In this document: positions 14,880 to 42,464 of the stretch, one piece after another | Position numbering within the stretch: position 1 is the first letter of the stretch | Layout: every line of letters begins with the position of its first letter | Made by a program: the position numbers and the translations under genes | Source of the DNA: Actinoallomurus soli | Lineage (GTDB): Bacteria; Actinomycetota; Actinomycetes; Streptosporangiales; Streptosporangiaceae | Assembly: GCF_024055715.1 (NCBI RefSeq) | Contig: NZ_JAMXMV010000004.1 | Location: 124,001 to 188,000, forward strand | Length of the DNA: 64,000 nucleotides | Reading direction: 5' to 3' | The notes under the pieces: generated by a model | Databases searched by the model: none | Told to the model about the DNA's origin: nothing | What the model saw: only the letters and a program-made list of their open reading frames with translations

Positions 14880-15550
14880 CGGAGTTCTTCGATGCCGAAC
14901 CGGGCGCACAGGCCCGGCAGCGCCTCGCCGATCGGCGTACCGGGCGGGACCGTCGCGTCCCAGCCGAACCCGGCGATCGCCGGCGCGGAGCCGGCCAGCA
15001 CGACGGGACGGCCCCGGTCGCGGGCGACGCCCATCAGGGCGAGCAGCGCCCGGTCGCGGTCCGGGACGCCCGGGACGCCCAGGTAGGCCCACGGGCCGCC
15101 GGGCTCCCCGGCGGCGGCGTCCACGAGCACCAGGTCCACGTCGGTCGTGTCGAGGACGAGGGCGGCGTCGTGCGGCATCAGCGGCACCACATGCGCGACC
15201 TCGCCCAGGGCCGCGGCGGCGGCCGGGCCGAGCACGCCGGCGACGACCAGGCCGGCCGCGGGCGCCGCCGCGATGAGCCGGTCCTCGTCGCGCGCGGTGA
15301 ACATCGGGCGCTCGCGCGCGTCGACCGAGGTGACGACGTTCGGCGCGCCCCGGTGCCGCCACATCCGGTACAGCTCGCGCGGCAGCTGGACGACGCCCTT
15401 GCCGGGCCTGCGGGCCGCGTCGGTCACGGCGCGGCCCACCTTGAGGGACGTCGAGCCCTCCAGCGCGGCGACCCGCGCCTCCAGGATCTGGACCCGGGCC
15501 TCCCGGTCGGCCAGCGCCGCCTTGAGCCGGGCCACCTGCCGGTCAGCCAC
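14876..15550 (-). CDS. Coiled-coil protein of unknown function in the polysaccharide operon
   Basis: 224 residues. The first ~40 residues are a heptad-patterned coiled coil (LKAALADREARVQILEARV), followed by LEGSTSLKVGRAVTDAARR, a linker seen at the ends of many polysaccharide glycosyltransferases and methyltransferases, then an alpha/beta Rossmann-like remainder without recognisable catalytic motifs. It overlaps wecB by 8 bp and the double glycosyltransferase by 4 bp, so it is an operon member. It could be a scaffold or chain-length component of the glycosyltransferase complex; no function can be assigned. Confidence 0.75.
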   Translation of the reverse strand: MADRQVARLKAALADREARVQILEARVAALEGSTSLKVGRAVTDAARRPGKGVVQLPRELYRMWRHRGAPNVVTSVDARERPMFTARDEDRLIAAAPAAGLVVAGVLGPAAAAALGEVAHVVPLMPHDAALVLDTTDVDLVLVDAAAGEPGGPWAYLGVPGVPDRDRALLALMGVARDRGRPVVLAGSAPAIAGFGWDATVPPGTPIGEALPGLCARFGIEELR

Positions 15551-16613
15551 CGAGCCACCCCTCCACGACGCGGGCGATGCGCGGTCCGGCGTGGCCGTCC
15601 CACAGCGGCGGGTGCTCCCGCTCGCCGCGGCCGGCCGCCAGGGCCTCGGCGACGGCGGGGACGACGTCGTCGGCGGTGACGAGCCGGTTGGTGCCGTGCG
15701 TGATCGTGATCGGCCGCTCGGTGTTGGGCCGGAGCGTCAGGCACGGCACGCCGAGGATCGTCGTCTCCTCCTGCACGCCGCCGGAGTCGGTGACGACGGC
15801 CGCCGCGCCGCGCACGGCCGCGACGAACTCGACGTAGCCGAGCGGTTCGAGCAGGCGCACGCGCGGATGGGCGTCCAGCCCGGCCTCGGTGAGCACCTTA
15901 CGGCCGCGCGGGTGCACCGGCATGACGACGTCCACCAGCTCGGCGATCTCGTGCAGCCGCTTGACCAGGCCGGCCGCGACCTCCGGGTCGTCGACGTTCG
16001 CGGGCCGGTGCAGCGTCGCGACGACGTACCGCTCGGGCAGGTCGTACGCCCGCCGGACGGCGTCGGCGTCGAACCTGCCGAGGTTCGCGAGCAGCGTGTC
16101 GATCATCGGGTTGCCGACGAAGTGGATCCGGTCGACCGCGACTCCCTCGGCCGCGAGGTGGCCGACCGCCTCCGGGCTCGTGACGAGGCACAGGTCCGAC
16201 AGCTGGTCGACGAGCCGGCGGTTGACCTCCTCCGGCATGGTCATGTCGAAGCTGCGCAGCCCCGCCTCCACGTGGGCGACCGGGATGCGAAGCTTGGCCG
16301 CGACGAGGGCGGCGGCGATGGTGGAGTTCACGTCGCCGTACACCATGACGAGCTCGGGTGAACGCTCGATGAACTCCTTCTCCAGCGCCACCATGATCGC
16401 GGCGGTCTGGGCCGCGTGGCTGCCCGAGCCGACCTCCAGGTTCACGTCGGGTTCGGGCAGGCCCAGGTCACGGAAGAACACCTCCGACATGCGCTCGTCG
16501 TAGTGCTGGCCCGTGTGGATCACTCGCTGTCCGCGCCCCGTCTCGGACAGCGCGGCGATCACCGGCGCCGCCTTGACGAAGTTCGGACGGGCGCCGAGTA
16601 CATGCGCGATCAC
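15543..16613 (-). CDS. wecB: UDP-N-acetylglucosamine 2-epimerase (non-hydrolysing)
   Basis: 356 residues, the normal size. Family motifs are GARPNFVKAAPVI, HTGQHYDERMSEVFF, HVEAGLRSFDMTMPEE, and the UDP-binding TDSGGVQEET near residue 280. Converts UDP-GlcNAc to UDP-ManNAc in the cytoplasm. The UDP-ManNAc-type dehydrogenase is encoded divergently at 18131, so the pair would yield UDP-ManNAcA. GTG start at 16613 with AAAGGGA upstream. It heads a three-gene minus-strand operon with the coiled-coil and double-glycosyltransferase genes. Confidence 0.93.
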   Translation of the reverse strand: MIAHVLGARPNFVKAAPVIAALSETGRGQRVIHTGQHYDERMSEVFFRDLGLPEPDVNLEVGSGSHAAQTAAIMVALEKEFIERSPELVMVYGDVNSTIAAALVAAKLRIPVAHVEAGLRSFDMTMPEEVNRRLVDQLSDLCLVTSPEAVGHLAAEGVAVDRIHFVGNPMIDTLLANLGRFDADAVRRAYDLPERYVVATLHRPANVDDPEVAAGLVKRLHEIAELVDVVMPVHPRGRKVLTEAGLDAHPRVRLLEPLGYVEFVAAVRGAAAVVTDSGGVQEETTILGVPCLTLRPNTERPITITHGTNRLVTADDVVPAVAEALAAGRGEREHPPLWDGHAGPRIARVVEGWLGG

Positions 16614-18130: not shown

Positions 18131-19399
18131 GTGGATCTGGTGGTCATCGGACTTGGCTACGTCGGCCTCCCGCTCGTGCGGGAGGCCGGCCGCGCCGGCC
18201 TCCGGGTCGGCGGGCTGGACCGCGACGCCCGTGTCGTCGCCGGGCTCAAGGCCGGCCTGTCCCACGTCGACGACGTGAGCGCCGAGGACGTCGAGCGGAT
18301 GCTCGCCGCCGGCTTCACGCCCTCACGGGACGAGGACATCCTCGACGGTGCGCGCACCATCGTGATCTGCGTGCCGACGCCGCTGTCGAACGACGGCGGC
18401 CCCGACCTGACGGCCGTCCGGTCCGCCGCGCAGACGGTCGCGCGGCACCTGGACCCCGGCACGCTCGTGGTGCTGGAGTCGACGACCTACCCGGGCACCA
18501 CCGATGAGGTCGTCCGGCCGATCCTGGAGGAGTCCGGCCTGGTGGCGGGCGAGGACTTCCACCTGGCCTTCTCCCCCGAGCGGATCGACCCGGGCAACCC
18601 GGTGTACGGCGTCCACAACACGCCGAAGATCGTCGGCGGCCTGACGCCGTCCTGCGCGCACGCCGCGGCGGCCTTCTACGGCAAGTTCGTCGAGCACGTC
18701 GTGCAGGCCAAGGGCACCCGCGAGGCCGAGATGGCCAAGCTGCTCGAGAACACCTACCGGCACGTCAACATCGCGCTGGTCAACGAGATGGCGGTGTTCT
18801 GCAACGAGCTGGGCATCGACCTGTGGGACTCGATCGCCTGCGCCTCCACCAAGCCGTTCGGCTTCCAGGCGTTCTACCCGGGACCCGGCGTCGGCGGGCA
18901 CTGCATCCCGATCGACCCGAACTACCTGTCGTACAAGGTGCGGTCCCTCGGCTACCCGTTCCGGTTCGTCGAGCTGGCGCAGGAGATCAACGACCGGATG
19001 CCGCGGTACGTCGTCGAGCGCGCGCAGGCCCTGCTCAACCGCGATGGCCTGGCCATGAAGGGCGCCAAGGTGCTCATCCTCGGCGTCACCTACAAGCCGG
19101 ACATCGCGGACCAGCGCGAGTCGCCCGCCCGTCCGGTCGCCCGGCGGCTGCGGAAGATGGGCGCCGACCTGAGCTTCCACGACCCGCACGTCGAGAGCTG
19201 GGACGTCGACGGCGAGCCGGTGCCGCGCGCCCGCGTGCTCTACACGGCGCTCGCGGAGGCCGACCTCGCGATCGTCCTCACCGACCACCGGGAGTACGAC
19301 CCGGAGAGCCTCACCCGGCACGCGCGGCTGCTGTTCGACACCCGGGGCGCCACGCGCCGCCTCGAGGAAACGGCCGCCGAACGCGTCGAATTGCTGTGA
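18131..19399 (+). CDS. wecC: Nucleotide sugar dehydrogenase, UDP-N-acetyl-D-mannosamine dehydrogenase type
   Basis: 422 residues. NAD-binding GLGYVG at residues 7-12; the catalytic Cys sits in GVGGHCIPIDPNYL; the C-terminal UDP-binding domain contains ILGVTYKPDIADQRESPA. The HCIPIDP signature is typical of UDP-ManNAc/UDP-GalNAc dehydrogenases, while the UDP-glucose enzyme at 41031 has GGGCLPKD. Paired with wecB it would make UDP-ManNAcA, a precursor of teichuronic-type wall polymers. GTG start with GGGAG nine bases upstream. UDP-GalNAc cannot be excluded as substrate. Confidence 0.9.
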   Translation: MDLVVIGLGYVGLPLVREAGRAGLRVGGLDRDARVVAGLKAGLSHVDDVSAEDVERMLAAGFTPSRDEDILDGARTIVICVPTPLSNDGGPDLTAVRSAAQTVARHLDPGTLVVLESTTYPGTTDEVVRPILEESGLVAGEDFHLAFSPERIDPGNPVYGVHNTPKIVGGLTPSCAHAAAAFYGKFVEHVVQAKGTREAEMAKLLENTYRHVNIALVNEMAVFCNELGIDLWDSIACASTKPFGFQAFYPGPGVGGHCIPIDPNYLSYKVRSLGYPFRFVELAQEINDRMPRYVVERAQALLNRDGLAMKGAKVLILGVTYKPDIADQRESPARPVARRLRKMGADLSFHDPHVESWDVDGEPVPRARVLYTALAEADLAIVLTDHREYDPESLTRHARLLFDTRGATRRLEETAAERVELL

Positions 19400-22351: not shown

Positions 22352-24703
22352 ATGGTGCCGACCGTGAAGGACGAGCAGATGGCCGCGGAACAGTCCCGCG
22401 TCGACGAAGCCTACGCACGTCTGGAGGAGATGCGCGCGGCCGCTCGCCGGATGCTGGAAGAGGGCTACCGCCAGGCCCAGGCCGGCACCAAGGGATCGCT
22501 CGTCGACCGCGACGCGATGGTCCACCAGGCGGCGGTCCGCAGCCACGCGCTCGACGTCGCCGAGGAGGGCCTGGTCTTCGGCCGGCTCGACCTGGTCGGC
22601 GGCGAGACGCTCTACGTCGGGCGGATCGGCGTCCGCACCGGCGAGCACGACTCGCTCGTCATCGACTGGCGCGCTCCGGCGGCCGAGGCGTTCTACCGCG
22701 CGACCCCCGAGGACCCGCGCGGCGTCGTACGCCGGCGGGTACTGCACTGCCGGGGCCGCACGGTCGTCGACCTGGAGGACGACCTGCTCATCCCCGGCGC
22801 GCGGACGGACCTGACGATCGTCGGCGACGGCGCGTTCCTGGCCTCGCTCGCCCGCAGCCGCGAAGGGACGATGCGCGACATCGTCGCCACCATCCAGCGC
22901 GAACAGGACGAGGTGATCCGCTCCCCGGCCGACGGCACCGTCATCGTCCAGGGCGGCCCCGGCACCGGCAAGACCGCCGTCGCCCTGCACCGGGTGGCGT
23001 ACCTGCTGTTCCGGCACCGGCGCAGGTTCGGCTCGCGCGGCGTGCTCATCCTCGGGCCCAACCCGCGCTTCACCGCGTACATCGAGCGCGTGCTGCCGTC
23101 CCTGGGCGAGGGCGGCGCCACGCTGCGCTCGCTCGGCGACCTCGTCCCCGGCGCGGAGGCGACCGCCCACGACGTCCCGGAGCTCGCGCGCGTCAAGGGC
23201 GCCACGATGATGACGCGGGTGCTGCGGCGGGCCGTGCAGGACGCTCCCCCGGGCAGTCCGGACACCCTCCGCACCGTCTACCGCGGGGTCGTGGTGTCGC
23301 TGGAGCGCGAGGCCCTGGACCGCATCCGCCGCGAGGTCCACCGCACCGCGCACGGCTCGGTCAACACCGCCTACCCCCGCGCCGCCGACCTGCTCCTCGG
23401 CGCGCTCTGGGACCGTTTCCTGGAGGTCGGTGGCCCGGACGACGCCCCTGGGACGTCCCGCGCCGCGTTCACCGCGCACGTCCGTGACGAGCGGCGCTTC
23501 GTCGAGTTCCTGCGCTCCTGGTGGCCGGTCCGCCGCCCGGCCGACGTGCTGCGCTCGCTCACGGACCCCGATCGGCTGCGCCGCGCCGCGGGCCGCTCGC
23601 TGAACGACCGGCAGCTCCGGCTGCTCGCCGAGTCTTGGGGCGGCCCCTGGTCCTACCTCGACATCGCGCTGCTCGACGAGGCCGGCGCGATCCTGGGGCC
23701 GCCTCCGCGGCCGCCGCGCGGCAGGAGGCGCAAGGCGGAGGACCCGTTCGTCATCGACGGCGTCAACGTCTTCACCGGCGAACGCGTCGAGACCGAGGAC
23801 GACGACGAGCCGACGCTGCGCGAGCTCACCACGTACGTCGAACGCCGCGAACAGGCGATGCGCCGCGACGACGAGGAGGACGAGGACCTTCCCGTGGAGT
23901 ACGCCCACATCGTCGTCGACGAGGCGCAGGACCTGTCGCCGATGCAGTGGCGCATGCTGGGCCGGCGGGGCCGGACGGCCACCTGGACGATCGTGGCCGA
24001 CCCCGCGCAGAGCGCCTGGGAGGACGCCGCCGCCGCGCGCAAGGCGATGGACACCGCGCTCGGCCGCCGGCCACGCCACGCGTTCGAGCTCACCACCAAC
24101 TACCGCAACTCCGTCGAGATCGCCGAGGTCGCCGCGAGAGTCCTGGCCCGGGCGGTCCCCGAGGCCCGGCCGGCCCGCGCCGTCCGCGCCTCCGGACACC
24201 GCCCGGTCATCCGCCACGTCCCCGCGCTCGACGGCAACGTGCGCGCCGAGGCGGCCGCCCTGGCCGACGCGGTCGAGGGCACCGTCGGCGTCATCCTGCC
24301 CGTGGGCCACCCGGCGCCCTGCCTGCCGGACCTGCCCGAGCGGGTCCAGGTGCTCGACGCCCTGGAGGCGAAGGGCCTGGAGTTCGACGCCGCGTTGATC
24401 GTCGAGCCGGGAGAGATCGCGGACTACGCTCAGACGGGACTGCGCACGCTCTACGTCGCCGTCTCCCGCGCCACCCAGCGCCTCACCGTCCTCACCACCG
24501 CCCCGGACTGGGAGGCCCTCCTGTCCGGCACCGCGCCCGATAACGGCATCACGGGTAGCGCCGCACGGGGCAGCACCCCAGGCGGCGGCACCAGGCCGGG
24601 CGGCACGGCAGGAGACGACGCCAGGCCGGGCGGCACGGCAGGAGGCGACGCCGGATCGGACAGCGCGATAGGGGGCGGCGCCGGGTCGGGCGGCGCCGGA
24701 TAA
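22352..24703 (+). CDS. helR: HelD/HelR-type RNA polymerase-associated motor ATPase (UvrD-like)
   Basis: 783 residues. The N-terminal coiled region (residues 10-60) is followed by the HelD signature IDWRAPAAEAFYRATPEDP, Walker A GGPGTGKT at 201-208, Walker B DEAQDLSPMQW near 525, TTNYRNS, and a C-terminal KGLEFDAALIVE plus LYVAVSRATQRLTVL. This is the actinobacterial HelD class, which recycles RNA polymerase; the HelR members protect it from rifamycins. The C-terminal ~48 residues are a Gly-rich low-complexity tail encoded by 30-bp repeats, not part of the conserved enzyme. Rifamycin protection is inferred from family; no rifamycin-associated element was recognised upstream. Confidence 0.85.
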   Translation: MVPTVKDEQMAAEQSRVDEAYARLEEMRAAARRMLEEGYRQAQAGTKGSLVDRDAMVHQAAVRSHALDVAEEGLVFGRLDLVGGETLYVGRIGVRTGEHDSLVIDWRAPAAEAFYRATPEDPRGVVRRRVLHCRGRTVVDLEDDLLIPGARTDLTIVGDGAFLASLARSREGTMRDIVATIQREQDEVIRSPADGTVIVQGGPGTGKTAVALHRVAYLLFRHRRRFGSRGVLILGPNPRFTAYIERVLPSLGEGGATLRSLGDLVPGAEATAHDVPELARVKGATMMTRVLRRAVQDAPPGSPDTLRTVYRGVVVSLEREALDRIRREVHRTAHGSVNTAYPRAADLLLGALWDRFLEVGGPDDAPGTSRAAFTAHVRDERRFVEFLRSWWPVRRPADVLRSLTDPDRLRRAAGRSLNDRQLRLLAESWGGPWSYLDIALLDEAGAILGPPPRPPRGRRRKAEDPFVIDGVNVFTGERVETEDDDEPTLRELTTYVERREQAMRRDDEEDEDLPVEYAHIVVDEAQDLSPMQWRMLGRRGRTATWTIVADPAQSAWEDAAAARKAMDTALGRRPRHAFELTTNYRNSVEIAEVAARVLARAVPEARPARAVRASGHRPVIRHVPALDGNVRAEAAALADAVEGTVGVILPVGHPAPCLPDLPERVQVLDALEAKGLEFDAALIVEPGEIADYAQTGLRTLYVAVSRATQRLTVLTTAPDWEALLSGTAPDNGITGSAARGSTPGGGTRPGGTAGDDARPGGTAGGDAGSDSAIGGGAGSGGAG
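24561..24700. repeat. 30-bp imperfect tandem repeat array in the 3' end of helR
   Basis: Units at 24591-24620, 24621-24650 and 24651-24680, a partial unit at 24681-24700, and a degenerate one at 24561-24590. The first two differ at a single base (each begins CCAGGCCGGGCGGCACGGCA). They encode ten-residue Gly-rich repeats at the C-terminus of HelR and, on the other strand, an open Ala/Arg/Pro-rich frame continuing the XRE regulator. Confidence 0.88.
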
Positions 24704-25920: not shown

Positions 25921-26781
25921 CTAAATGACCGGGGGGCGGCCGAGGCGGGTCATGCGCCAGACGGTGCGCCAGGAGATGGCGCGTCGCCTGCCGGCGGGCT
26001 TGCGCCAGCCCTCCAGGAAGCCGCTGAACCAGGGGCGGAGCGCGGCCGGCTTGCGTTCGCGCAGGACCGTCATCCCCGTCCACACGCCGAGGTAGACGAG
26101 GACGAGCGGCCAGGGCAGGTTGCGCCGGGCCAGCCAGACGCGGTTGCGGGCGTTGAGCCGGTAGAACATCTCGTGCCGGGTCGGCGCGACGGCCGGGTGG
26201 AACATCACCGACTCGGCGTCGTACACGATGCGGTATCCGGCGTTCAGCGCCTGCCAGGCGAGGTCGGTCTCCTCGTGGGCGTAAAAGAAGTCCTCGGGGA
26301 GCCCGCCCGCCGCGTCGAACGCGGCGCGGCGCATCGCGCAGGCGCCGCCGAGGAAGGTCGTGACCTCCGAGGAGCGGAGCGGGTCGCCGGCGCGGAGCCG
26401 GGGAACGTGACGCCGCTCCCCCGGGCCGCCCTCGGGGTCGCGCACGCGGAAGGACACGATGCCGAGCTTCGGGTCGCGGGTGAACATGTCCCGCAGCCGC
26501 GCGCCGAGCTCCATCGACTCGTACCAGCCGTCGTCGTCCAGGAAGAGGATGAGCTCGCCGGACGACGCCTCGACGCCCCGGTTGCGGCCGGCGGGGATGC
26601 CGACGTTCTCCGGGAGACGGAGGACTCTGACGTTGTCGGGCCAGGAGCCGGGGACGTCCGCGCCGTTGCCGACGAGCACGACCTCGATCTCGACGCCGAC
26701 CTGGCCCAGCGCGCTCTTGACCGCGCGTTCGAGCTCGACCGGCCGGTTCCCCATGGTCAGCACGACGACCGAGATCCTCAT
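25921..26781 (-). CDS. GT2 glycosyltransferase, last gene of the CDP-alcohol operon
   Basis: 286 residues. GT-A motifs: ISVVVLTMGNRPVELERAV at the N-terminus, LPENVGIPAGRNRGVEASSG, the metal-binding FLDDDGWYE near residue 85, and HEETDLAWQALNAGYRIVYD near residue 185, which carries the ED-type catalytic acid. Hydrophobic C-terminal segment. ATG overlaps the TGA of the upstream CDP-alcohol phosphotransferase (ATGA), so it is part of that operon. It may glycosylate the phospho-polyol product; donor unknown. Confidence 0.87.
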   Translation of the reverse strand: MRISVVVLTMGNRPVELERAVKSALGQVGVEIEVVLVGNGADVPGSWPDNVRVLRLPENVGIPAGRNRGVEASSGELILFLDDDGWYESMELGARLRDMFTRDPKLGIVSFRVRDPEGGPGERRHVPRLRAGDPLRSSEVTTFLGGACAMRRAAFDAAGGLPEDFFYAHEETDLAWQALNAGYRIVYDAESVMFHPAVAPTRHEMFYRLNARNRVWLARRNLPWPLVLVYLGVWTGMTVLRERKPAALRPWFSGFLEGWRKPAGRRRAISWRTVWRMTRLGRPPVI

Positions 26782-27569
26782 TTGAGCCTCCGGGACGCCA
26801 CGATGCTGACGAAGTGCAGGCCGGTCTGCAGGACGGCGACGACCGCGACGGCGACGGCGAGGACCCTTGTTGCGGTCAGGCCGTGCGTCAGGTGGTCGAT
26901 GACCGCCGTGGCCACGATGAGCAGCGACAGCTCCACCGCGCCGATGATCCGGTGGAACTTCAGCAGCGACGCGGCCTCGCGGGCCAGCGCCAGGCCCGTC
27001 GACTCCGGGCGCAGCGCGCGGTCCCCGGTCGCGGGGTCCGCGGGCAGGCCCGACTTGGCGCGGGCGACCACGACGTTGTCGGTCTCGGCCTTGATCAGCG
27101 CCGCGCCGAGCGCGGCGAGCAGGCCCAGCTCGACGTAGCCGCCGTTCTCCCACGCGCCCTGGGCCCGTACGCCGAGGCCGACCAGCAGCGCGACCTCGGA
27201 CATGTAGTGCCCGATCCGGTCGAGGAAGACGCCGGTGACGGACGTCCGCTTGCGGAACCGCGCGACCTCGCCGTCGGAGCAGTCCAGCAGGAGATACGCC
27301 TGGATGAGGAGGGCGCCGACGATGGCCCAGATCAGGCCCGCCGTTCCGCGGCCGTCGACCGCGACGGCCGCGCCGCCCAGCACGCCGCAGGCGATCATCA
27401 TGTAGGTGAGCTGGTTCGGGCTGAACCCGATCCGGATGAAGAGCCAGGTGAACAGGGGCGAGATGCTGCGCATGTACAGCCGTCCCGCCCAGTGCTCTTC
27501 GTTCCGGCGTTCCTTGAGGCCGGGTGGCTGTCCGCCCGCCCGAACCTCAGCCAGCGAAGGTGCCGACAT
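26778..27569 (-). CDS. CDP-alcohol phosphatidyltransferase family protein with altered last motif residue
   Basis: 263 residues, about six transmembrane helices. The CDP-OH motif runs from D96 (DCSDGEVAR) through G113 and D117 to residue 121, which is His instead of the final Asp (LDRIGHY); that Asp is taken to be the catalytic base in characterised members. The family transfers a phospho-alcohol from a CDP-linked donor to an acceptor lipid or polyol at the membrane. The start overlaps the dehydrogenase gene by 23 bp and the stop overlaps the GT2 gene by 4 bp. Substrates are unknown; the neighbours suggest a CDP-polyol made from glycerol-1-phosphate. Confidence 0.85.
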   Translation of the reverse strand: MSAPSLAEVRAGGQPPGLKERRNEEHWAGRLYMRSISPLFTWLFIRIGFSPNQLTYMMIACGVLGGAAVAVDGRGTAGLIWAIVGALLIQAYLLLDCSDGEVARFRKRTSVTGVFLDRIGHYMSEVALLVGLGVRAQGAWENGGYVELGLLAALGAALIKAETDNVVVARAKSGLPADPATGDRALRPESTGLALAREAASLLKFHRIIGAVELSLLIVATAVIDHLTHGLTATRVLAVAVAVVAVLQTGLHFVSIVASRRLK

Positions 27570-28620
27570 ATTCGCGTACCGCTTTCAGCACAGCGCCCTC
27601 GTCGAGTCCGAGGTGCTCCAGGATGGTGTACCGGCCAGGCCGTGTCTGGGGAGCGTAGAACACCGCCTCGGCGAACTGCTCCTCGGTCAGACCGATGTCA
27701 TGCGGTGTCTTGGGCAGTCCGTGACGGTCGAGGCACGTCACGATCTGCGTGAGGCGTTCCGCGCCCTCGCCGAGGTGGGTGGCGCGCAGGTGGTAGCAGA
27801 ACGCCGCGCCGATCCCCGCCAGCTCGCCGTGGTTCGCGGTGCCGGGGAACAGGTGGTCGATCGCGTGCAGGATCTCGTGGTCGCCGCCGCTCGCCGGACG
27901 TGAGGACCCGGCGAACGACATCGCCATCCCCGACAGCACGAGCCCCTCGGCCAGCACGGTGAGGAACTCGTCCGACTCGATCGACCTGGGCTGGTAGATG
28001 AGCGCCTCAGCGGCCGTACGGGCGAGGGTCAGCGCGAGCCGGTCGATCGGGTCGCCCTGCTCCCGGCCCGCCAGCAGCCAGTCGTCGACCGCCGAGAAGT
28101 TGCTCAGCACGTCGCCGATCCCGGCGCGGACGAGCCGCTCCGGCGCGGCGCGCACGTAGTCCAGGTCGACGACCATGGCCAGCGGCATCGCCACGCCGAA
28201 GGAGTTCTTGCCCTTCTCGTGCTCCAGGGAGGCCGTCGGCGAGCAGATGCCGTCGTGGGAGAGGTTCGTGGCGACCGAGACCATCGGCATGCCGGCGAGC
28301 GTCGCGGCGTACTTCGTCGCGTCGATGGTCCTGCCGCCGCCGATGCCGACGACCGCCTCGTACGAGCCGCTGCGCAGCCGGGACCCGAGCTCCATCGCCG
28401 CGTCGACCGTGCCGCCGTCGACGTGGAACACCTCGCACGCCTGCAGGCCCGGCCGTACGTGCTCGGCGATCTGGTCGCCCTGCCCCGGCCCGACCGCGAT
28501 GGCGACGCGGCCCTCCGTGGCGATCCGCCGGTCCGCGAGCAGCTCCCCGAGGTGGGCGATGGCCCCGCGCCGCACGTCGATGGACAGCGGCGCGGGGAGC
28601 ATCCGCGTGAGCAGCGGCAT
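27547..28620 (-). CDS. sn-glycerol-1-phosphate dehydrogenase-like protein (iron/zinc-dependent alcohol dehydrogenase superfamily)
   Basis: 357 residues, the length of AraM/EgsA-type enzymes. NAD(P)-binding GIGGGRTID at 92-100; metal ligands by family alignment D170 (GIGD), H248 (GGDHE) and H264 (NHGE); N119-D123 (NLSHD) supports the G1P-dehydrogenase group rather than GldA. The family reduces dihydroxyacetone phosphate to sn-glycerol-1-phosphate, best known for archaeal lipids and Bacillus AraM. One-base overlap with the cytidylyltransferase gene upstream (TGATG) and 23-bp overlap with the CDP-alcohol phosphotransferase downstream. Exact substrate is inferred. Confidence 0.83.
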   Translation of the reverse strand: MPLLTRMLPAPLSIDVRRGAIAHLGELLADRRIATEGRVAIAVGPGQGDQIAEHVRPGLQACEVFHVDGGTVDAAMELGSRLRSGSYEAVVGIGGGRTIDATKYAATLAGMPMVSVATNLSHDGICSPTASLEHEKGKNSFGVAMPLAMVVDLDYVRAAPERLVRAGIGDVLSNFSAVDDWLLAGREQGDPIDRLALTLARTAAEALIYQPRSIESDEFLTVLAEGLVLSGMAMSFAGSSRPASGGDHEILHAIDHLFPGTANHGELAGIGAAFCYHLRATHLGEGAERLTQIVTCLDRHGLPKTPHDIGLTEEQFAEAVFYAPQTRPGRYTILEHLGLDEGAVLKAVREYVGTFAG

Positions 28621-29351
28621 CAGTATTCCTTGGCGATCCGGCGGGCCTTCTCCAGGTCGTCGTGGTTGTCGACCTCGACCCAGTCGACCGCGCCGATCGG
28701 GGCCACCGAGATCCTGCCGCCGCGGTTCACCAGCTCCTGGTAGCCGTCCTCGTAGTACAGGTCGGGGTCGCGCTCCCAGGTGGCCTTCAGCGCGTCGGCG
28801 AGCGGCTCGGCCGCGGCGGGCTCCAGCAGCGTGGCGCCGATGTACTCGCCGTACGCCTCGGAGGGGTCCATCAGCTTCGTGATGCGCTGCAGATGCCCGT
28901 CGGCGTCGAGGATGACCTTCATCTCCTCTTCCGCGAGCTTCTTGACGTCGTCGACGGCGAGGAGGATGTCCGGGCCGCGGTTCTCCAGGAGGGTCTTCTC
29001 GACGCTCACCGGGTGCACCGTGTCGCCGTTGACCATGAGGACGCCCTCGCCGAAGTGCTCACGCGCCAGCCACATGGAGTAGGCGTTGTTCCACTCCTCG
29101 GCCTTGTCGTTGTGCACGAGCGTGATGGACACGCCGTACCGGCTCTCCAGCGCGGCCTTGCGCTGCTCGACCGCCTCGGCGCAGTAGCCGACGACGATGA
29201 CGACGTCGGTCAGCTCCACCTCGGCGAGGTTCCCGAGCGCGATGTCGAGAATCGTCGTGTCACCGTCGACCGGCACCAGGGCCTTGGGCAGCGTGTCCGT
29301 GTACGGACGGAGACGTCGCCCCGCGCCCGCGGCCAGAACCATGCCGATCAT
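28620..29351 (-). CDS. Sugar/polyol-phosphate nucleotidyltransferase (LicC/inositol-phosphate cytidylyltransferase-like)
   Basis: 243 residues. The nucleotide-binding signature is VLAAGAGRRLRPYTDTLPKA at residues 5-24, then MVNGDTVHP and a C-terminal DWVEVDNHDDLEKARRIAKE. This compact form without a beta-helix domain is typical of cytidylyltransferases that supply CDP-choline, CDP-glycerol or CDP-inositol. Between the dehydrogenase and two CDP-alcohol phosphotransferases it probably makes the CDP-alcohol they use, plausibly CDP-glycerol from glycerol-1-phosphate. ATGA overlap with the gene upstream. Confidence 0.83.
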   Translation of the reverse strand: MIGMVLAAGAGRRLRPYTDTLPKALVPVDGDTTILDIALGNLAEVELTDVVIVVGYCAEAVEQRKAALESRYGVSITLVHNDKAEEWNNAYSMWLAREHFGEGVLMVNGDTVHPVSVEKTLLENRGPDILLAVDDVKKLAEEEMKVILDADGHLQRITKLMDPSEAYGEYIGATLLEPAAAEPLADALKATWERDPDLYYEDGYQELVNRGGRISVAPIGAVDWVEVDNHDDLEKARRIAKEY

Positions 29352-30031
29352 GAGCCGGCTTCCTCCTCATCCTCGAGATTGACCATCACGCCCTTGCCGG
29401 TACCGGTCCGCACCCAGGTGTAGACGCTCTCGATACCGAACAGCAGGGCGAAGTAGACACCGAGCACGGCCAGGACGACGGGCAGCCTGCCCACGAGCGC
29501 GGCGATCGCCACGATCAGCAGGCGGCCGTCCCAGCCGAGGCCGGCGACGAACACCCATCGGGCCGGCCACAGCCGCTGACGCGTGCGGTAGACGGTGTCG
29601 TAGTGGTGGTAGGCCAGCACGCCCAGGAAGGCGTAGACCAGCGGCTTGGAGACGTCGTGCGCGAAGCCCAGCGTCGCGAGGTAACCGTACTCGATGGCCC
29701 GCATGAGCGGCGGCACGAGCCAGTCGAGGCGCCCGCTGTGCGGATGCGTCGAACCGGGACCCGCCAGCAGCAGCACCAGCACCGGAGCGAAGACCGCCGG
29801 GCTGGTCTGGCCGCTGACGCCGACCCCCAGCAGGATCGCGGTGACGATGCCGGCGACGAGCAGCGGCAGCAGCGGCGGAAGCTGGCCCTTGGTCAACCGG
29901 CCCAGCGCGTGGGCGATCGGGCCGTCGTCGCGGTAGGCGACCAGCCGGCTGCCGTGGTAGGCGAGCTCGGCGTCGGGGACCGGGGCGGCGGCGGGCTTGC
30001 CCGCCGCGGACATACCAGGGAGGACACTCAT
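29348..30031 (-). CDS. DUF5941-like integral membrane protein
   Basis: 227 residues with five or six hydrophobic helices starting around residue 45 (LLPLLVAGIVTAILLGVGV) and a charged C-terminus ending EDEEEAGS. No catalytic motif seen; in particular there is no DxxDGxxAR motif, although HYDTVYRTRQRLW is a conserved-looking loop. Recognised from its usual partnership with the CDP-alcohol phosphotransferase/nucleotidyltransferase fusion; other actinobacteria carry this region fused to the phosphotransferase. Both ends overlap neighbours by 4 bp (ATGA), so it is an obligate operon member, perhaps a membrane subunit. Confidence 0.7.
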   Translation of the reverse strand: MSVLPGMSAAGKPAAAPVPDAELAYHGSRLVAYRDDGPIAHALGRLTKGQLPPLLPLLVAGIVTAILLGVGVSGQTSPAVFAPVLVLLLAGPGSTHPHSGRLDWLVPPLMRAIEYGYLATLGFAHDVSKPLVYAFLGVLAYHHYDTVYRTRQRLWPARWVFVAGLGWDGRLLIVAIAALVGRLPVVLAVLGVYFALLFGIESVYTWVRTGTGKGVMVNLEDEEEAGS

Positions 30032-31683
30032 TTCGAAACCGCCACCGACCTCGGCTGGGTGAGGGACCGGAGGATACGGCCGGCGATCGTGTAGAACGCG
30101 GCGACGCCACCCCACGTGAGCAGGGCGATGAACGTCACGCGCGCGTTGAAGATCGCCGCCGTGAGGGCGATGAGCGCGAACCGCTCTCCGATCGGAAGCA
30201 CGATCATCTTCTTGAACCAGTGGAAGACCCGGACCTGCTCCGAGCGCGCGGACAGCCAAACCGCGAGGTGGCTGAGACCGCGGCCCTTGGGCCGGCTCTT
30301 CGGCGGCTCCGGCTCGTCCAGCATGCTGTCACTGGGCGTGCCGAGCGGAACGACCGGGATCGGCTCGGGCGGCATGCGCCGCTTCGAGGCGCCGAACGCG
30401 AAGTCCACCATGTGCCGGCAGGTCTGCGCCGTGATGGCGGTCGCGGCGAGGAACCACACGTCGCCGCCGTGCGCCGAGCTGCCGACCGCCGCCGCGGTGG
30501 AGCCCACCGCGAGGCCGGCGAACACGGTGTACTCCTTGGCACGGTCGAACGTCGCGTCGAGCCAGGCGCCGAGCGTGCTGAACTGCCGGGTGTAGCGGGC
30601 GAGCTGCCCGTCCACGCAGTCGAAGACGAACGCGAAGTACAGCGACAGGCCGCCGAGGATCATCCCCCACCGCTGGCCGGTGGCGAAGAACCCCGCGGCG
30701 ATGATCGAGATTCCCATCGAGATCGCGGTGACGGCGTTCGGCGTCCAGCCGCGCCTGCCGGCCCAGCGCGCGATGTAGCGGGAGTAGGTGCTGACCGCGT
30801 AGGTCGTGAAGAAGCCGTCGTTGTTCTTGACCGCCGCGGTGAGCCGGACCTTGTCCTCGTCGACGGAGTCGACGGCCCGCTGGGCCGCGTCCGCCTGCGT
30901 CTGATCCAGGACCCGCTCGCACACCAGCGTGCTGTTGCCGCGGCCGGTGACCTTCACCCCCGAGCGCACCAGGCCGACGACGAGCAGTGCCGGCGCGTCG
31001 TCTCCGGTGATCGGGGTGGTGGCCAGGGCCTCGAGGTGCACGCCGCCGGCCTGCTCGATCTCGACGTCCCCGGTGTCCTCCGGGTCGTCCCACAGCCGGC
31101 GGAGCGGGCTGATCTGCGTGAAGCCGTCCGGCTTGTCCGCGAGGTCGGCCAGTCTGTCGGCCACCGTGGCGAGCGTCCCGGTCTCCTCCTGGGAGACCCG
31201 CACGATGCCGCGGAAGACGGCGTTCGGGTCGGTCACCTGGTGGTACGCGGAGCCCGCGGACTGGATGCGGCCCTTGCGGATCCGGATGAGAGGGCGGGTC
31301 AGCCGGTCGTCGTTCACGGGCACGCGGGCGACGGCGGCGGAGGCGGGCGCCTTGGAGTTGTAGACGAGCCGCGCGAACACCTCGCGGTGGGCGACGACGT
31401 CGCCGTGCACGATGAGCATCGGCCGTTTCGCGGTGCGGGCGACCCGGGCGATCTCACGCAGGTCGTCGGCGAGCCCCTTGGACTCGACGACCTCGCAGCC
31501 GGCCTCACGCAGGGCGGCGGCGAACTCGGGGCGGGCGATCACGCGTCTGTCGGCGATGTCGAGGGACTGGAGCTGGGCGAGCAACCGGGTGACGACCGCG
31601 GCGCCGCCCGGGAGTGTGAGGCCGGCCGTCGGCGTGGAACCGGACGCGACCGCCTCGGTCGCGAGAACCACTGCCAACGTCAT
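30028..31683 (-). CDS. Fusion of a degenerate nucleotidyltransferase domain with a CDP-alcohol phosphotransferase
   Basis: 551 residues. Residues 1-270 have nucleotidyltransferase-like order (VVLATEA, PMLIVHGDVVAHREVFARLV, FRGIVRVSQEE) but lack the G-x-G-x-R nucleotide-binding loop. Residues 295-545 are a CDP-alcohol phosphotransferase with a complete motif: D355, D358, G359, R363, G372, D376 and D380 (FDCVDGQLARYTRQ then GAWLDATFD), with several transmembrane helices. The layout recalls the archaeal inositol-phosphate cytidylyltransferase/DIPP-synthase fusion, but the first domain looks catalytically dead. ATG 31683 has GGAGGG upstream. First gene of the six-gene operon. Confidence 0.83.
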   Translation of the reverse strand: MTLAVVLATEAVASGSTPTAGLTLPGGAAVVTRLLAQLQSLDIADRRVIARPEFAAALREAGCEVVESKGLADDLREIARVARTAKRPMLIVHGDVVAHREVFARLVYNSKAPASAAVARVPVNDDRLTRPLIRIRKGRIQSAGSAYHQVTDPNAVFRGIVRVSQEETGTLATVADRLADLADKPDGFTQISPLRRLWDDPEDTGDVEIEQAGGVHLEALATTPITGDDAPALLVVGLVRSGVKVTGRGNSTLVCERVLDQTQADAAQRAVDSVDEDKVRLTAAVKNNDGFFTTYAVSTYSRYIARWAGRRGWTPNAVTAISMGISIIAAGFFATGQRWGMILGGLSLYFAFVFDCVDGQLARYTRQFSTLGAWLDATFDRAKEYTVFAGLAVGSTAAAVGSSAHGGDVWFLAATAITAQTCRHMVDFAFGASKRRMPPEPIPVVPLGTPSDSMLDEPEPPKSRPKGRGLSHLAVWLSARSEQVRVFHWFKKMIVLPIGERFALIALTAAIFNARVTFIALLTWGGVAAFYTIAGRILRSLTQPRSVAVSK

Positions 31684-31913
31684 CGGCACCCTCCGAAGAT
31701 CATCTCTGTAGTCCTCAGGTCTGGGGTGGGGGTCTCTCTCCGGCCGGGGCCGTGAGATGCGAGCGCCGACCATACCGCGACTAGTAGCGCGCCGCCTCCT
31801 CGCCGTAAACATCCGTTCAGCCGGGTGACGCGGCGAGAGCCCCCATAGGTTACCGCTGCCACGGGCCTGTGGGCCCCCACGGCCGTACCCGCGCGGTCGG
31901 TAAAGTGCTGCGG

Positions 31914-32633
31914 ATGAGAACCGTTGCGGTCGTCCTCGCCGGCGGGACGGGACTGCGCCTCGGGCTGGGTGCGCCCAAGCAGTTGGCGGCGGTCGGCGGT
32001 CGCCCCATTCTGGCCCGTGCGATCGAGGCGTTCGAGTCGGCGCCGGACATCGACGAGGTCGTCGTCGTGATGGCGGCCGGTCACGTTCCCGAGGCCGAGG
32101 TCATCGCCAAGCCGTACGCCAAGGTGCGCCGGGTCGTCGAGGGCGGCCCCACCCGTACGGAGTCGACGCTGCGGGCGCTGGCCGCCCTGGAGCACGAGCC
32201 CGGCGACGCGCGCGTGCTGTTCCACGACGCCGCGCGCCCGTTCGTGGACGCGCGCATCATCGCCGAATGCGTCGCCGCGCTGGAGCACGAGGACGTCGTC
32301 GCGGTCGCGGTGCCCTCGTCGGACACCGTGGTGGTGGTCGAGGGCGACCGGGTGGTCGAGATGCCGCGCCGGGACTCACTGCGGCGCTTCCAGACGCCGC
32401 AGGGGTTCCGCCTCGCCGTCATCCGCGCGGCGTACGAGCGGGCGCTGGCCGACCCGGGGTTCACCGAACGGCCGCCGACGGACGACTGCGGCGTCGTGCA
32501 CCGCTACCTGCCCGAGACGCCCATCCTGGTCGTCCCGGGCAGCGAGCAGAACATCAAGATCACGCATCCGGTCGATCTGCTGATCGCCGAGCAGATCACC
32601 GCTGGGGAGAGCGCCCAAGGCTCGGCGGGCTGA
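31914..32633 (+). CDS. IspD/TarI-family cytidylyltransferase
   Basis: 239 residues. Family motifs: VVLAGGTGLRLGLGAPKQLA at residues 6-25, HDAARPFVDARII near 104, LRRFQTPQGFR near 155 and the C-terminal NIKITHPVDLLIAE. It fits 2-C-methyl-D-erythritol 4-phosphate cytidylyltransferase (IspD), but ispF, the usual actinobacterial neighbour, is absent, and the location beside CDP-alcohol enzymes and an LCP gene also fits a CDP-ribitol/CDP-polyol synthase (TarI type). TAAAGT seven bases before ATG suggests a leaderless transcript. The last 38 bp overlap the convergent GT2 gene. Confidence 0.85.
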   Translation: MRTVAVVLAGGTGLRLGLGAPKQLAAVGGRPILARAIEAFESAPDIDEVVVVMAAGHVPEAEVIAKPYAKVRRVVEGGPTRTESTLRALAALEHEPGDARVLFHDAARPFVDARIIAECVAALEHEDVVAVAVPSSDTVVVVEGDRVVEMPRRDSLRRFQTPQGFRLAVIRAAYERALADPGFTERPPTDDCGVVHRYLPETPILVVPGSEQNIKITHPVDLLIAEQITAGESAQGSAG

Positions 32634-33612
32634 GCAGGAAGCCCGCGCCCCACGCGAGGTGCATGGTCGCGTAGACGAGCGGCAGCCGCGCCCAGGCCGA
32701 GAACGGCAGCCCGCGCCCGGTCGCGACCGAGCCGGCGAGGATCGCGGCGGCGTACCCGCCGGGGATGATCCAGCCGGGCCAGAACCCGAACACGCCCGCG
32801 ACCGCGCCGGCCGCGATCGCGACCACGGCGACCGGCGGCGCGAGGTAGCGCAGGTTGAGCGTGCCCTGATGCTCCCGGCCGACGACGCGCCGCCACTTCC
32901 CGGTGTGGAAGAACTGCTTGGCCAGTGCCCGGAGGTTCGGCCTGGGCCGGTACGTCACGCGCATCCGCGGGGTGAACCAGATCCTGCCGCCGGTCTGGCG
33001 GATGCGGTGGTTCATCTCCCAGTCCTGCGCGCGCACGAACGTCTCGTCGTACCCGCCGACCCGGTCCAGGGCGCTGCGCCGGAAGCTGCCGAGATAGACG
33101 GTCTCGACCTCACCGGGCTGCCCGCCGATGTGGAACGTCGCGTTGCCGATGCCGATCTTCGTCGTCATCGCGCGGGCGACGGCCTTCTCGAACGGCGTGA
33201 CGCCCTCGGCGGCCATGATGCCGCCGACATTGTCCGCGCCCGTCTCCTCGAGGGTCTCGACGGCGGCGAGGACGTAGTCGGACGGCAGCAGCGAATGGCC
33301 GTCGACGCGGACGATGATGGAGTGCCGGGAGGCCTGGATGCAGGCATTCAGGCCGTTGGGGGTGCGGCCCGTCGGATTGGCGACGACGACGATCCGCGGG
33401 TCGTCGGCCGCGAGCTTCTCCGCGATCTCCTGCGTACGGTCGCGGGAGGGCCCGACCGCGATGACGAGCTCCAGCTCACCGGGGTAGTCCTGGGTGAGGA
33501 TGGACCCGACCGCCTCCGCGAGATGCCGCTCCTCGTTGAGCACGGGCATGATCACTGACACGGCCGGCCAAACGCGGTTTCGGGCGACCTGTGTGTTGGG
33601 CGAGGGATTCAT
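32596..33612 (-). CDS. GT2 glycosyltransferase with C-terminal membrane helices
   Basis: 338 residues. GT-A domain: VSVIMPVLNEERHLAEAVGS, VVVANPTGRTPNGLNACIQ, metal-binding RVDGHSLLPSDY, FVRAQDWEMNHRIRQTGG with the catalytic acidic pair, then three or four C-terminal hydrophobic helices after residue 255. This ExoA/succinoglycan-transferase-like architecture is typical of membrane-associated polysaccharide synthesis. Divergent from the second LCP gene (81 bp apart), it probably acts on the same glycan. The 3' end overlaps the IspD/TarI-like gene. Confidence 0.86.
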   Translation of the reverse strand: MNPSPNTQVARNRVWPAVSVIMPVLNEERHLAEAVGSILTQDYPGELELVIAVGPSRDRTQEIAEKLAADDPRIVVVANPTGRTPNGLNACIQASRHSIIVRVDGHSLLPSDYVLAAVETLEETGADNVGGIMAAEGVTPFEKAVARAMTTKIGIGNATFHIGGQPGEVETVYLGSFRRSALDRVGGYDETFVRAQDWEMNHRIRQTGGRIWFTPRMRVTYRPRPNLRALAKQFFHTGKWRRVVGREHQGTLNLRYLAPPVAVVAIAAGAVAGVFGFWPGWIIPGGYAAAILAGSVATGRGLPFSAWARLPLVYATMHLAWGAGFLLSPPSLGRSPQR

Positions 33613-33693: not shown

Positions 33694-35331
33694 ATGGCAC
33701 ACGACGAGGAGTCCGACCCGCAGGAGCGCTACTTCCGTCCCCGTCCCGGCGCCCCGGGTGACGACGAGGCGGCGGAGGTGGAGGGTGTCGCGTTCGGCGA
33801 CACCGAGTCCTCCCACGTGCGCGTCGAACGCCGCTCGCGCGCGGCCCCGGCGGCGGCGGTGGCTCCGGACGGCGCGCGGCGGCAGCGCCGGTACCTCGTC
33901 ACGACGGGCCTGATGTCGACGGCCGTGCTGCTGTTCTCCGGCGGCGGCTGGGCCGTCCAGGACTACGTGCTGGGCAGCGTGCGGCGCGTCAACGCCTTCG
34001 ACGGGCTGAAGAACCGCCCCGACGCCGGGCCCCAGGGCTCGATGAACATCCTGCTGGCCGGTGTCGACCGGCGTGAGGGCCTGACCGACCAGCAGATCCG
34101 GGACCTGCACCTCGGCAAGGCCGACGGCGAGCGCTCCGACACGATGATGCTGGTGCACATCTCCTCGAAGCACGACAAGGTCACCGTGGTCAGCATGCCG
34201 CGTGACTCCCTGGTCACCATCCCGGCGCACCGGTCCAACGGCAGCGAGGGCGCGAAGGGCACGGAGATCGGCGAGCGGCAGGGCAAGCTCAACTGGGCGT
34301 ACATGTACGGCGGGCCGACACTCGCCGTGCAGACGGTGGAGCGGGTCACCGGCGTCCACGTCGACCACTACGTCGAGGTGAACTTCCTGGGCTTCATCAA
34401 GGTCGTCGACGCGCTGGGCGGCGTGACGATCTGCACGAACCAGCCGATCGACGACCCGAAGAGCGGCCTGCGACTGCCCGCCGGCAAGAGCACCGTGGAC
34501 GGCAAGACCGGGCTCGCCTACTCACGCGCCCGCTACACCCTGACCGGCGGCAGCGACCTCGGCCGGATCCAGCGGCAGCAGCAGTTCATGTCGGCGGTGG
34601 CGCACAAGGCGCTGAGCGATCCGACGAAGTATCCCGCGGTGCTCGGCGCGGCGCTGAGCACGATCCGGGCCGACAAGGAGCTGTCGAAGGGCACGCTGAC
34701 GTCCCTGGCCACGCAGATGAGGGGGATGAGCACGGACAGCATCGCCTTCACGACGGTGCCGCTGTCCAACCCCGACTACCTGACGACGATCGGGGGGCTG
34801 CGGCAGTCGACCGTGCTGTGGGACGAGCAGGCCGCCGGCCGGCTCTTCGACGAGATCCAGCGGGACAAGCCGATCGTCGAGCCGCCGAAGCCCGCCCAGA
34901 GCGCCTCGTCGAGCGCGTCCCCGGCCGCGTCGCACACGCCGGATCCCAATGCCCTGACCGTGGCCCCGCGGAACATCACGGTGCGGGTCGTCAACGGCGT
35001 CGGGACTCCCGGGCTGGCCGCCCGGGCGGCGGGCGATCTGCGTGACGCCGGGTTCGGCGCGGTCGTCGTGCCGGGCGCCCGGCCCGGGGCCACGGCGACC
35101 GTCATCCAGTACGGCCCGGGCCGCGAGGATTCGGCGCGCACCCTGAAGGCCGCCATTCCGGGGGCACGGCTGAAGCAGGTCCCCGCCCTCGGCTCGCGGC
35201 TGCAGGTCGTGGTGGGTCCGTCCTGGTCCGGGGCCAAGAAGGTCACCGTCAGCCCGCCGGCCAAGGCGCCGGCCGGCGACTCCCAGCAGCAGGTGACCGC
35301 GCGGACGGCGACGCAGAACCTCTGCAAGTGA
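33694..35331 (+). CDS. LCP (LytR-CpsA-Psr) family glycopolymer ligase with LytR_C domain
   Basis: 545 residues. A ~65-residue acidic, disordered cytoplasmic N-terminus, one transmembrane helix near residue 75 (GLMSTAVLLFSGGGWAV), an LCP domain with GERSDTMMLVHISS, VSMPRDSLVTIP and GSDLGRIQRQQQFM, a Ser/Ala/Pro linker near residue 405, and a C-terminal LytR_C domain beginning TVRVVNGVGTPGLAARAAG. Same architecture as the LCP protein at 10028 but with a longer cytoplasmic tail. GGAGAGG lies 9 bases before ATG. Likely transfers a lipid-linked polymer to peptidoglycan. Confidence 0.92.
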   Translation: MAHDEESDPQERYFRPRPGAPGDDEAAEVEGVAFGDTESSHVRVERRSRAAPAAAVAPDGARRQRRYLVTTGLMSTAVLLFSGGGWAVQDYVLGSVRRVNAFDGLKNRPDAGPQGSMNILLAGVDRREGLTDQQIRDLHLGKADGERSDTMMLVHISSKHDKVTVVSMPRDSLVTIPAHRSNGSEGAKGTEIGERQGKLNWAYMYGGPTLAVQTVERVTGVHVDHYVEVNFLGFIKVVDALGGVTICTNQPIDDPKSGLRLPAGKSTVDGKTGLAYSRARYTLTGGSDLGRIQRQQQFMSAVAHKALSDPTKYPAVLGAALSTIRADKELSKGTLTSLATQMRGMSTDSIAFTTVPLSNPDYLTTIGGLRQSTVLWDEQAAGRLFDEIQRDKPIVEPPKPAQSASSSASPAASHTPDPNALTVAPRNITVRVVNGVGTPGLAARAAGDLRDAGFGAVVVPGARPGATATVIQYGPGREDSARTLKAAIPGARLKQVPALGSRLQVVVGPSWSGAKKVTVSPPAKAPAGDSQQQVTARTATQNLCK

Positions 35332-42350: not shown

Positions 42351-42464
42351 GGTCCCGCCTCCTTTCCTCAGAGTTTCGTGCCCGACCCCGTCTGCATCCC
42401 CCACGGGCCGCTCGGCATGTTATCGGCCCTACTGGCGAGTAGGTTGACCGCGTACCATCGGCAC

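Follow-up and report, generated by a model that had tools for sequence, protein, structure and literature searches.

What a bacterium makes with a dehydrogenase of the glycerol-1-phosphate (G1P) type, a cytidylyltransferase-like enzyme and two homologues of CDP-alcohol phosphotransferases (CDP, cytidine diphosphate) is the question raised by a six-gene operon of Actinoallomurus soli, which lies in a 64,000-nucleotide stretch of contig NZ_JAMXMV010000004.1 (positions 124,001 to 188,000; the whole stretch is called the window, and its own numbering is used below). The genome under study (G000) comprises 9.4 Mb in 60 contigs. The original prediction proposed a route from dihydroxyacetone phosphate (DHAP) through G1P and a CDP-alcohol to a phospholipid or phosphoglycan. 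Our analysis indicates that this operon, which is real and widely conserved, most likely serves the supply and transfer of a teichoic-acid precursor, by a route to CDP-glycerol other than that of TagD; to its assignment as the module that supplies and transfers the precursor of a glycerol-phosphate wall polymer of the teichoic-acid type, judged from sequence comparison, we give a probability of roughly 0.6.

Six open reading frames (ORFs), A to F, lie head to tail on the minus strand from 31683 down to 25921. The predicted coupling of the genes, with five overlaps of 1-23 bp, was confirmed for every ORF and every junction (A/B, 4 bp; B/C, 4 bp; C/D, 1 bp; D/E, 23 bp; E/F, 4 bp), and Pfam and NCBIfam scans matched the predicted families and their order. 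Gene A (31683 to 30028; CDP-OH_P_transf, 43.5 bits in Pfam) begins with an ATG preceded by GGAGG and encodes a CDP-alcohol phosphotransferase; B (30031 to 29348; PF19365, 115.3 bits) encodes a DUF5941 protein that in Streptomyces forms a fusion with A; C (29351 to 28620; NTP_transferase, 49.3 bits) a nucleotidyltransferase of the LicC/PntC/IPCT type; D (28620 to 27547; Fe-ADH_2, 115.3 bits; NF002022, 252 bits) a G1P dehydrogenase (G1PDH)-like protein; E (27569 to 26778; CDP-OH_P_transf, 29.7 bits) a CDP-alcohol phosphotransferase homologue; and F (26781 to 25921; Glycos_transf_2, PF00535, 57.8 bits) a family 2 glycosyltransferase (GT2), whose start is placed at the ATG with a GGAGG-like site at 26781, versus 27153 in the ORF list.

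The membership of D in the G1PDH family is supported by several comparisons: (i) it matches the archaeal G1PDH structures 4RGQ and 4RFL (E 4e-42); and (ii) 44 of the 50 columns without variation among 35 archaeal G1PDH rows are the same in D, including GGG (columns 93-95), SRPxSG (239-244) and D169, H247 and H263, which we take to be the metal-binding triad. Across 43 rows in which D is paired with C, GGG, D99, K102, T117, D179, W180, H247, R326, R329 and T331 are 100% conserved and D169, S239, S243, H251 and H263 98% conserved; R326, R329 and T331 show no variation in either the archaeal or the C-paired rows. In a tree of 93 proteins, 56 bacterial rows fell behind one 100/100 branch, outside of which stood the archaeal rows, one bacterial-labelled row from a metagenome-assembled genome (MAG) inside Thermoplasmata and the frame-damaged row L057 (branch of about 10), the placement of such long rows being unsure. 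A deep clan of G1PDHs from Firmicutes and Actinobacteria has already been reported (PMC6431249; papers are cited here by PMC number) and is very likely the same family as D, standing apart from archaea as in our tree, and a set used to study G1PDH evolution includes a Streptomyces sequence (PMC5059525). On the best reading D would make G1P from DHAP, both the substrate and the stereochemistry being taken from the family.

The structural model of C (mean predicted local distance difference test score, pLDDT, 96) supports a nucleotidyltransferase fold of the cytidylyltransferase type, its nearest structural matches by VIA-align including PntC (Z 29.6), LicC (26.7) and IPCT (26.5). LicC and PntC resemble C in fold and level of similarity and differ from it in their operon partners; a scan of window genes showed no choline-uptake or phosphonate gene, a genome-wide search for them not having been made, and a phosphonate or choline route for C was set aside on that scan. 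We propose that C is a CTP:glycerol-1-phosphate cytidylyltransferase (CTP, cytidine triphosphate). Since D is of the G1PDH family, C has a cytidylyltransferase-type fold and the two genes are neighbors in 29 of 32 genomes with a strong D match, conversion of DHAP to G1P and on to CDP-glycerol is the best reading, and this part of the predicted route is supported at the level of sequence and structure comparison. The neighboring ispD gene was also considered as a source of a polyol cytidylyltransferase and rejected: with a score above the ispD cutoff (TIGR00453, 182.1 bits; cutoff, 181.3), its product is the sole IspD of this organism, so that the methylerythritol phosphate (MEP) pathway needs it. 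Only two PF01128 matches were found in the genome, ispD itself and GlmU (740 bits; cutoff, 611).

Conservation of the gene order, which had been named beforehand as a check, was borne out. The 12 further genomes sampled from the same family all had D, and in each of the 11 loci read (G393 was left out) the order C-D-E-F was kept with ispD adjoining; B was recognized in 10 of these and A in 8 (tblastn). The full order A to F recurs in L046-L049 (Streptomyces type), L050 and L051, with A and B forming one ORF in L049; it is interrupted by about 15 kb in L052/L053, and L054 has TagGH followed by C-D-E-F. The RefSeq annotation of Streptomyces fungicidicus shows a divergent galE, a fused A+B gene, C, D, E, a glycosyltransferase, an ABC permease and an ABC ATPase, and then hopanoid genes. 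The recurrence of the order in other families and its annotation in S. fungicidicus argue that the operon is more than chance. Its core is the C-D pair: in a phylum sample of 296 actinobacterial genomes (D counted at E<1e-30, C at E<=1e-10), D was found in 32, C had a match in all 32, and the two lay within 300 bp of each other in 29, being apart on the same contig in G108 and G003 and on two contig ends in G058. Among the best 80 loci of a scan of named genomes with the D alignment, local profile searches placed C next to D in actinobacteria, Thermoactinomycetaceae, Fictibacillus, Kerfeldbacteria, Chloroflexi and a Clostridia MAG; C adjoined D in none of the 35 archaeal loci, several of which are short contigs. 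In a plasmid collection, the closest match was from Nonomuraea gerenzanensis (C 75%, D 66%).

Several variants of the arrangement were observed. Bacillota have a comparable module: three Thermoactinomycetaceae loci (L076, L080 and L084) show the order CDPOH-C-D-CDPOH, and genes for an ABC permease and ATPase (scanned in L076 only) separate D from the second CDPOH gene. A Solidesulfovibrio plasmid has TagF-C, with no D in the 16 kb shown, and a Sulfitobacter plasmid has a relative of C together with an aminotransferase and a CDP-OH gene. A different kind of cytidylyltransferase accompanies the G1PDH-like enzyme in a gut alphaproteobacterium (L088, 9323-11510), where D has a HAD phosphatase-like gene on one side and a CTP_transf_like (TagD-type) gene on the other; a motif scan found a TagD-type gene beside D in no other locus. 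One Streptomyces-type genome has a second copy of D without C (L165, 13379-14506, minus strand), flanked by OBG and RNase E/G genes, with two TagF genes at distances of about 6 and 8 kb.

The link to teichoic acid comes from genes that accompany the pair. In a class sample of 168 genomes, which overlaps the phylum sample (D counted at E<=1e-40, PF04464 and TIGR01518 each at E<=1e-20), D was present in 40 genomes, the TagF-type family PF04464 in 63 and the TagD family TIGR01518 in 11, none of the latter over the cutoff of 165.4 bits. PF04464 was found in 38/40 genomes with D and in 25/128 without it (Fisher P 2e-18). TIGR01518 was matched in 0/40 and 11/128, respectively, a pattern that points to complementarity of D and TagD; among the 63 genomes with PF04464, it was matched in 0/38 with D and in 7/25 without it (P 9e-4), all such P values ignoring shared descent. 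Over their cutoffs, PF04464 occurred in 36 of the 296 genomes of the phylum sample and in 13 of its 32 D genomes, and TIGR01518 in 8 and none, respectively. The genome of A. soli itself has one PF04464 gene (G000:C11:529221-530291; 374.8 bits), and its best TIGR01518 match reaches 42.6 bits, so that the defining TagD feature is lacking; the module may nevertheless work like the TagD pathway.

Physical linkage was seen in some relatives. Four of the 11 loci read in the same family have TagGH-type genes beside the module, and Streptomyces has them next to F, the two ATPases scanned scoring under the NCBIfam TagH cutoffs. A single run in L162 holds C, D, an ABC-2 permease, a TagH-like ATPase, a GT2/TagF protein (PF04464, 336.7 bits) and a glycosyltransferase; L110 has C-D-TagF; in L063, TagF (PF04464, 313.8 bits) is divergent from C-D; in L052, C is followed by two PF04464 genes (83.4 bits, and a weak match of 24.5 bits); and L163 has C, D, TagGH, A, E and F with a convergent TagF. 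In a Micromonosporaceae-like genome (L158), TagG and TagH are followed by an A+B fusion (34% and 39% identity to A and B of the window) and TagF, with the C-D pair elsewhere in the genome. Four TagF-D pairs within 7 kb between gene centers were seen against 0.26 expected, a limit set once the data had been inspected; of the four, one (G403, L165) has a D without C, and with three pairs P is 0.002. The window also encodes two LytR-CpsA-Psr (LCP) glycopolymer ligases, at 33694-35331 (plus strand; TIGR00350, 165 bits), a candidate for attachment of the polymer to peptidoglycan, and at 10028-11461 (plus strand). Of the two products originally envisaged, the phosphoglycan is favored, since some genomes carry TagF, TagGH and LCP genes together with the module, and the phospholipid is not, no PcrB/GGGPS having been found in the genome.

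From these families and neighborhoods we infer the following route: (i) D would reduce DHAP to sn-glycerol-1-phosphate; (ii) C, with CTP, would activate it to CDP-glycerol in place of the missing TagD; (iii) A/B and E would use CDP-glycerol at the membrane, placing glycerol phosphate onto a lipid-linked acceptor or primer; (iv) F would glycosylate the product; (v) TagF-type polymerases, encoded elsewhere in the genome and beside C-D in some relatives, would extend the chain; and (vi) a TagGH-type exporter would move it and LCP proteins attach it. As in the wall teichoic acid (WTA) pathway of Bacillus (TagD, TagB/F, TagGH and LCP), the donor would be CDP-glycerol, and TagF, TagGH and LCP genes accompany the module in part of the genomes. 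The Bacillus pathway, however, uses TagD, whereas genomes with D have no strong TagD match and would obtain the precursor from a G1PDH-like and a LicC/PntC-like enzyme; unlike that pathway, the module also adds two CDP-OH homologues. The WTA of Bacillus is built of sn-glycerol-3-phosphate and its lipoteichoic acid (LTA) has the sn-1 form (PMC7086022), and one TagF-like enzyme builds polymer from pure CDP-1-glycerol (PMC8262930). Streptomyces hygroscopicus has a poly(glycerolphosphate) LTA very similar in structure to its WTA; the same study reported tagB/tagF orthologues and found no clear LtaS orthologue in actinobacteria (PMC3196553).

A number of observations weigh against the proposed wall-polymer module. 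D scores 252.4 bits over residues 10-349 against NF002022, the family of NAD(P)-dependent G1P dehydrogenases, below its cutoff of 413 bits, and we therefore do not claim the equivalog label and regard D as a relative of possibly similar function. Window D departs from the archaeal invariants at 16, 116, 189, 246, 248 and 289, and the residues on either side of an invariant His depart from the archaeal form (E246 to D/C, L248 to E). UDP-glucose pyrophosphorylases come close to the best match of the model of C (Z up to 26.9) and are level with LicC and IPCT, so that the fold names no substrate. The absence of TIGR01518 from all 40 D genomes of the class sample, against its presence in 11/128 without D, reaches a P of 0.07 only; 18 of the 25 PF04464 genomes without D also have no TIGR01518 match at E<=1e-20, which makes the complementarity of D and TagD incomplete; and 10 of the 32 D genomes of the phylum sample have weak TIGR01518 matches (34-66 bits). 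Fifteen of these 32 genomes, all of one family (f10), have C and D (adjacent in 14) and no PF04464 genome-wide, and D without PF04464 was also seen in G086, G045, G003 and G269 of the phylum sample and in G376 and G430 of the class sample, so that TagF would not be the sole user of the precursor. In A. soli, the PF04464 gene lies on a contig other than that of the operon, and TagGH-type genes are not in the operon, a genome-wide search for them not having been made. In three f10 loci (L057, L059 and L060), all without PF04464, a DUF4012 gene adjoins the C-D pair, and in L057 sugar transferase and phosphodiesterase genes lie downstream; the pair in these loci perhaps serves another phosphoglycan that uses CDP-glycerol.

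The prediction of two CDP-alcohol phosphotransferases holds in part. Both A and E match CDP-OH_P_transf, and A carries the full DxxDGxxAR(x8)GxxxDxxxD motif (DCVDGQLARYTRQFSTLGAWLDATFD), the four aspartates of which are kept in 31/31 A-type copies with a readable motif, including those of L158 and L052. E (DCSDGEVARFRKRTSVTGVFLDRIGH) keeps the first three aspartates; the fourth, the presumed catalytic base in PgsA1 (PMC6506517), is replaced by His in the E of A. soli and by His (22) or Ala (16) in 38/38 matched copies, the pattern used having required the third Asp and many of the copies being close relatives. The genome's four other CDP-OH genes keep all four aspartates, and in Thermoactinomycetaceae the fourth is Arg in one of the two CDP-OH proteins, the first, in 3/3. 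We have filed E as a CDP-alcohol phosphotransferase homologue and not as a canonical enzyme. Our guess is that E (i) relies on A, (ii) uses the His as base, or (iii) works on an acceptor, for example a lipid phosphate, for which no base is required. In 4/11 same-family loci (L168, L170, L175 and L177), a short A is separated from ispD by TagGH-type genes, and none of its four motif aspartates is in place (ungapped, by eye); the L170 copy has no Pfam match, and E keeps its His. Lineages with a motif-less A and a His-type E suggest that E can act alone there. More tentatively, and at somewhat less than even odds, many actinobacteria may make teichoic acids from sn-glycerol-1-phosphate via CDP-1-glycerol, supplied by an archaeal-like dehydrogenase and a new cytidylyltransferase, so that the backbone of their CDP-glycerol-derived WTA, and perhaps of their LTA, would be the mirror image of that of Bacillus WTA; E would represent a new type of CDP-alcohol phosphotransferase acting without the usual base, for instance one with a phosphate acceptor.

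The relatives of A and E bear on the rival that survives best, in which the same precursor route leads to a small or lipid molecule: A and E would put glycerol phosphate on a lipid alcohol or inositol phosphate, in the manner of archaeal glycerophosphoinositol, for which CDP-1-glycerol has been named (PMC8262930), or of DIPPS chemistry, and F would glycosylate it. The sequence of A matches AF2299 and PIPS, a weak model of the fused A+B of Streptomyces (mean pLDDT 66) aligns best with AF2299 and IPCT-DIPPS, over about 420 columns, and A and E are both nearest AF2299, IPCT-DIPPS and PIPS. IPCT-DIPPS (di-myo-inositol phosphate) and AF2299 of Archaeoglobus fuse a nucleotidyltransferase-like domain to a CDP-OH transferase, as the weak model suggests for A, whose N-terminal part, with no Pfam or NCBIfam match, may be nucleotidyltransferase-like; DIPPS uses a small CDP-alcohol, a likeness to the chemistry proposed here. 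Unlike IPCT-DIPPS, however, the N-terminal part of A has none of the motifs seen in C (by eye), and the operon adds a dehydrogenase and holds no inositol phosphate synthase. The f10 genomes also speak for this rival, as do Thermoactinomycetaceae and Kerfeldbacteria, where C-D stands with CDP-OH genes and a small local profile found no PF04464-like gene within 10 kb. Against it, the relatives link the module to an ABC-2 polysaccharide-type exporter, LCP and TagF, and nearly every D genome of the class sample has PF04464; we consider a small or lipid product unlikely.

Less likely again is a polymer of the same kind made from another CDP-alcohol (e.g., CDP-arabinitol, CDP-ribitol or CDP-2-glycerol), with D acting on another ketose phosphate, as its score below the NCBIfam cutoff and the changed residues beside the invariant His would allow. 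PF04464 enzymes include ribitol-phosphate polymerases, which fits such a product. However, D retains most archaeal invariants, and the motif at 246-248 in D rows next to TagF varies (EHL in L063, CHE in L110, DHE in L162), the L063 pair beside TagF keeping the archaeal EHL. No second IspD-like cytidylyltransferase (TarI) of a CDP-ribitol pathway was found in the genome, the other match being GlmU; TarJ was not searched for.

An archaeal-type ether lipid or a heterochiral phospholipid, formed as in the AraM-PcrB route of Bacillales or from G1P via PlsY/PlsC, is very improbable and has been mostly rejected. It would fit the homology of D, since the AraM-PcrB route also has a bacterial G1PDH-family dehydrogenase (in separate searches, not in one tree, D matched the archaeal structures at E 4e-42 and an annotated sn-G1P dehydrogenase of Priestia at 26% identity, E 6e-20), and PlsY/PlsC accept both forms of glycerol phosphate (PMC13400652); some Streptomyces are reported to have orthologues of G1PDH, GGGPS and DGGGPS, which would fit an ether lipid there and counts against a wall-polymer role (PMC6431249). 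D is, however, coupled to a nucleotidyltransferase and not to a prenyltransferase, and PF01884 (PcrB/GGGPS) had no match at E<=0.001 in G000, eight Streptomyces-type (f3) genomes or G204. Across the phylum sample, PF01884 was just over cutoff in 9/296 genomes (best, 24.7 bits; 43-59 profile positions), and 4 of the 32 D genomes had short, weak matches (G058 over cutoff; G108, G157 and G221 under).

Two elements of the wall-polymer module are already in print, namely, its synteny in Streptomyces and the actinobacterial G1PDH clan. A syntenic region crtB-tagH-tagG-araM with CDP-OH and GT2 clusters has been associated with teichoic acid biosynthesis in Streptomyces (PMC13118837, 2026) and, by its gene names, is apparently the same locus; the available text gives synteny only, with no mechanism, comparison with TagD/TagF or stereochemistry. 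The G1PDH clan has been treated for lipids, and "cytidylyltransferase" and "operon" are absent from the main text (PMC6431249). In our searches of openly licensed literature, we found no account of the coupling of a G1PDH to a cytidylyltransferase and teichoic acid, no bacterial CDP-1-glycerol route, no function for this operon and no paper on DUF5941. If correct, the wall-polymer reading would provide (i) a CDP-glycerol source for actinobacteria that have TagF and no strong TagD match; (ii) a genetic handle on the poly(glycerolphosphate) LTA and WTA that actinomycetes make without LtaS, a question stated as open (PMC3196553); and (iii) a role outside lipids for the known actinobacterial G1PDH clan (PMC6431249).

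Beyond the operon, the window appears to be rich in envelope-polysaccharide genes. The divergent ispD (31869 to 32633, plus strand), not counted in the pathway, is followed by a gene for a further GT2 glycosyltransferase (32596 to 33612, minus strand), a homologue of which lies near the operon in 11/11 same-family loci read. Farther out are a UDP-GlcNAc 2-epimerase (wecB, 304.7 bits) and two nucleotide-sugar dehydrogenases, these genes and the second LCP ligase lying at 15543-16613 (minus), 18131-19399 (plus), 10028-11461 (plus) and 41031-42404 (minus); the epimerase was the only linkage-unit gene to turn up in the window, TagO not having been searched for genome-wide. About 1.2 kb beyond the end of the operon, on the opposite strand, lies a gene for a HelR/HelD-like RNA polymerase recycling ATPase (22352-24703, plus strand; NF041258, 461 bits; cutoff, 1100).

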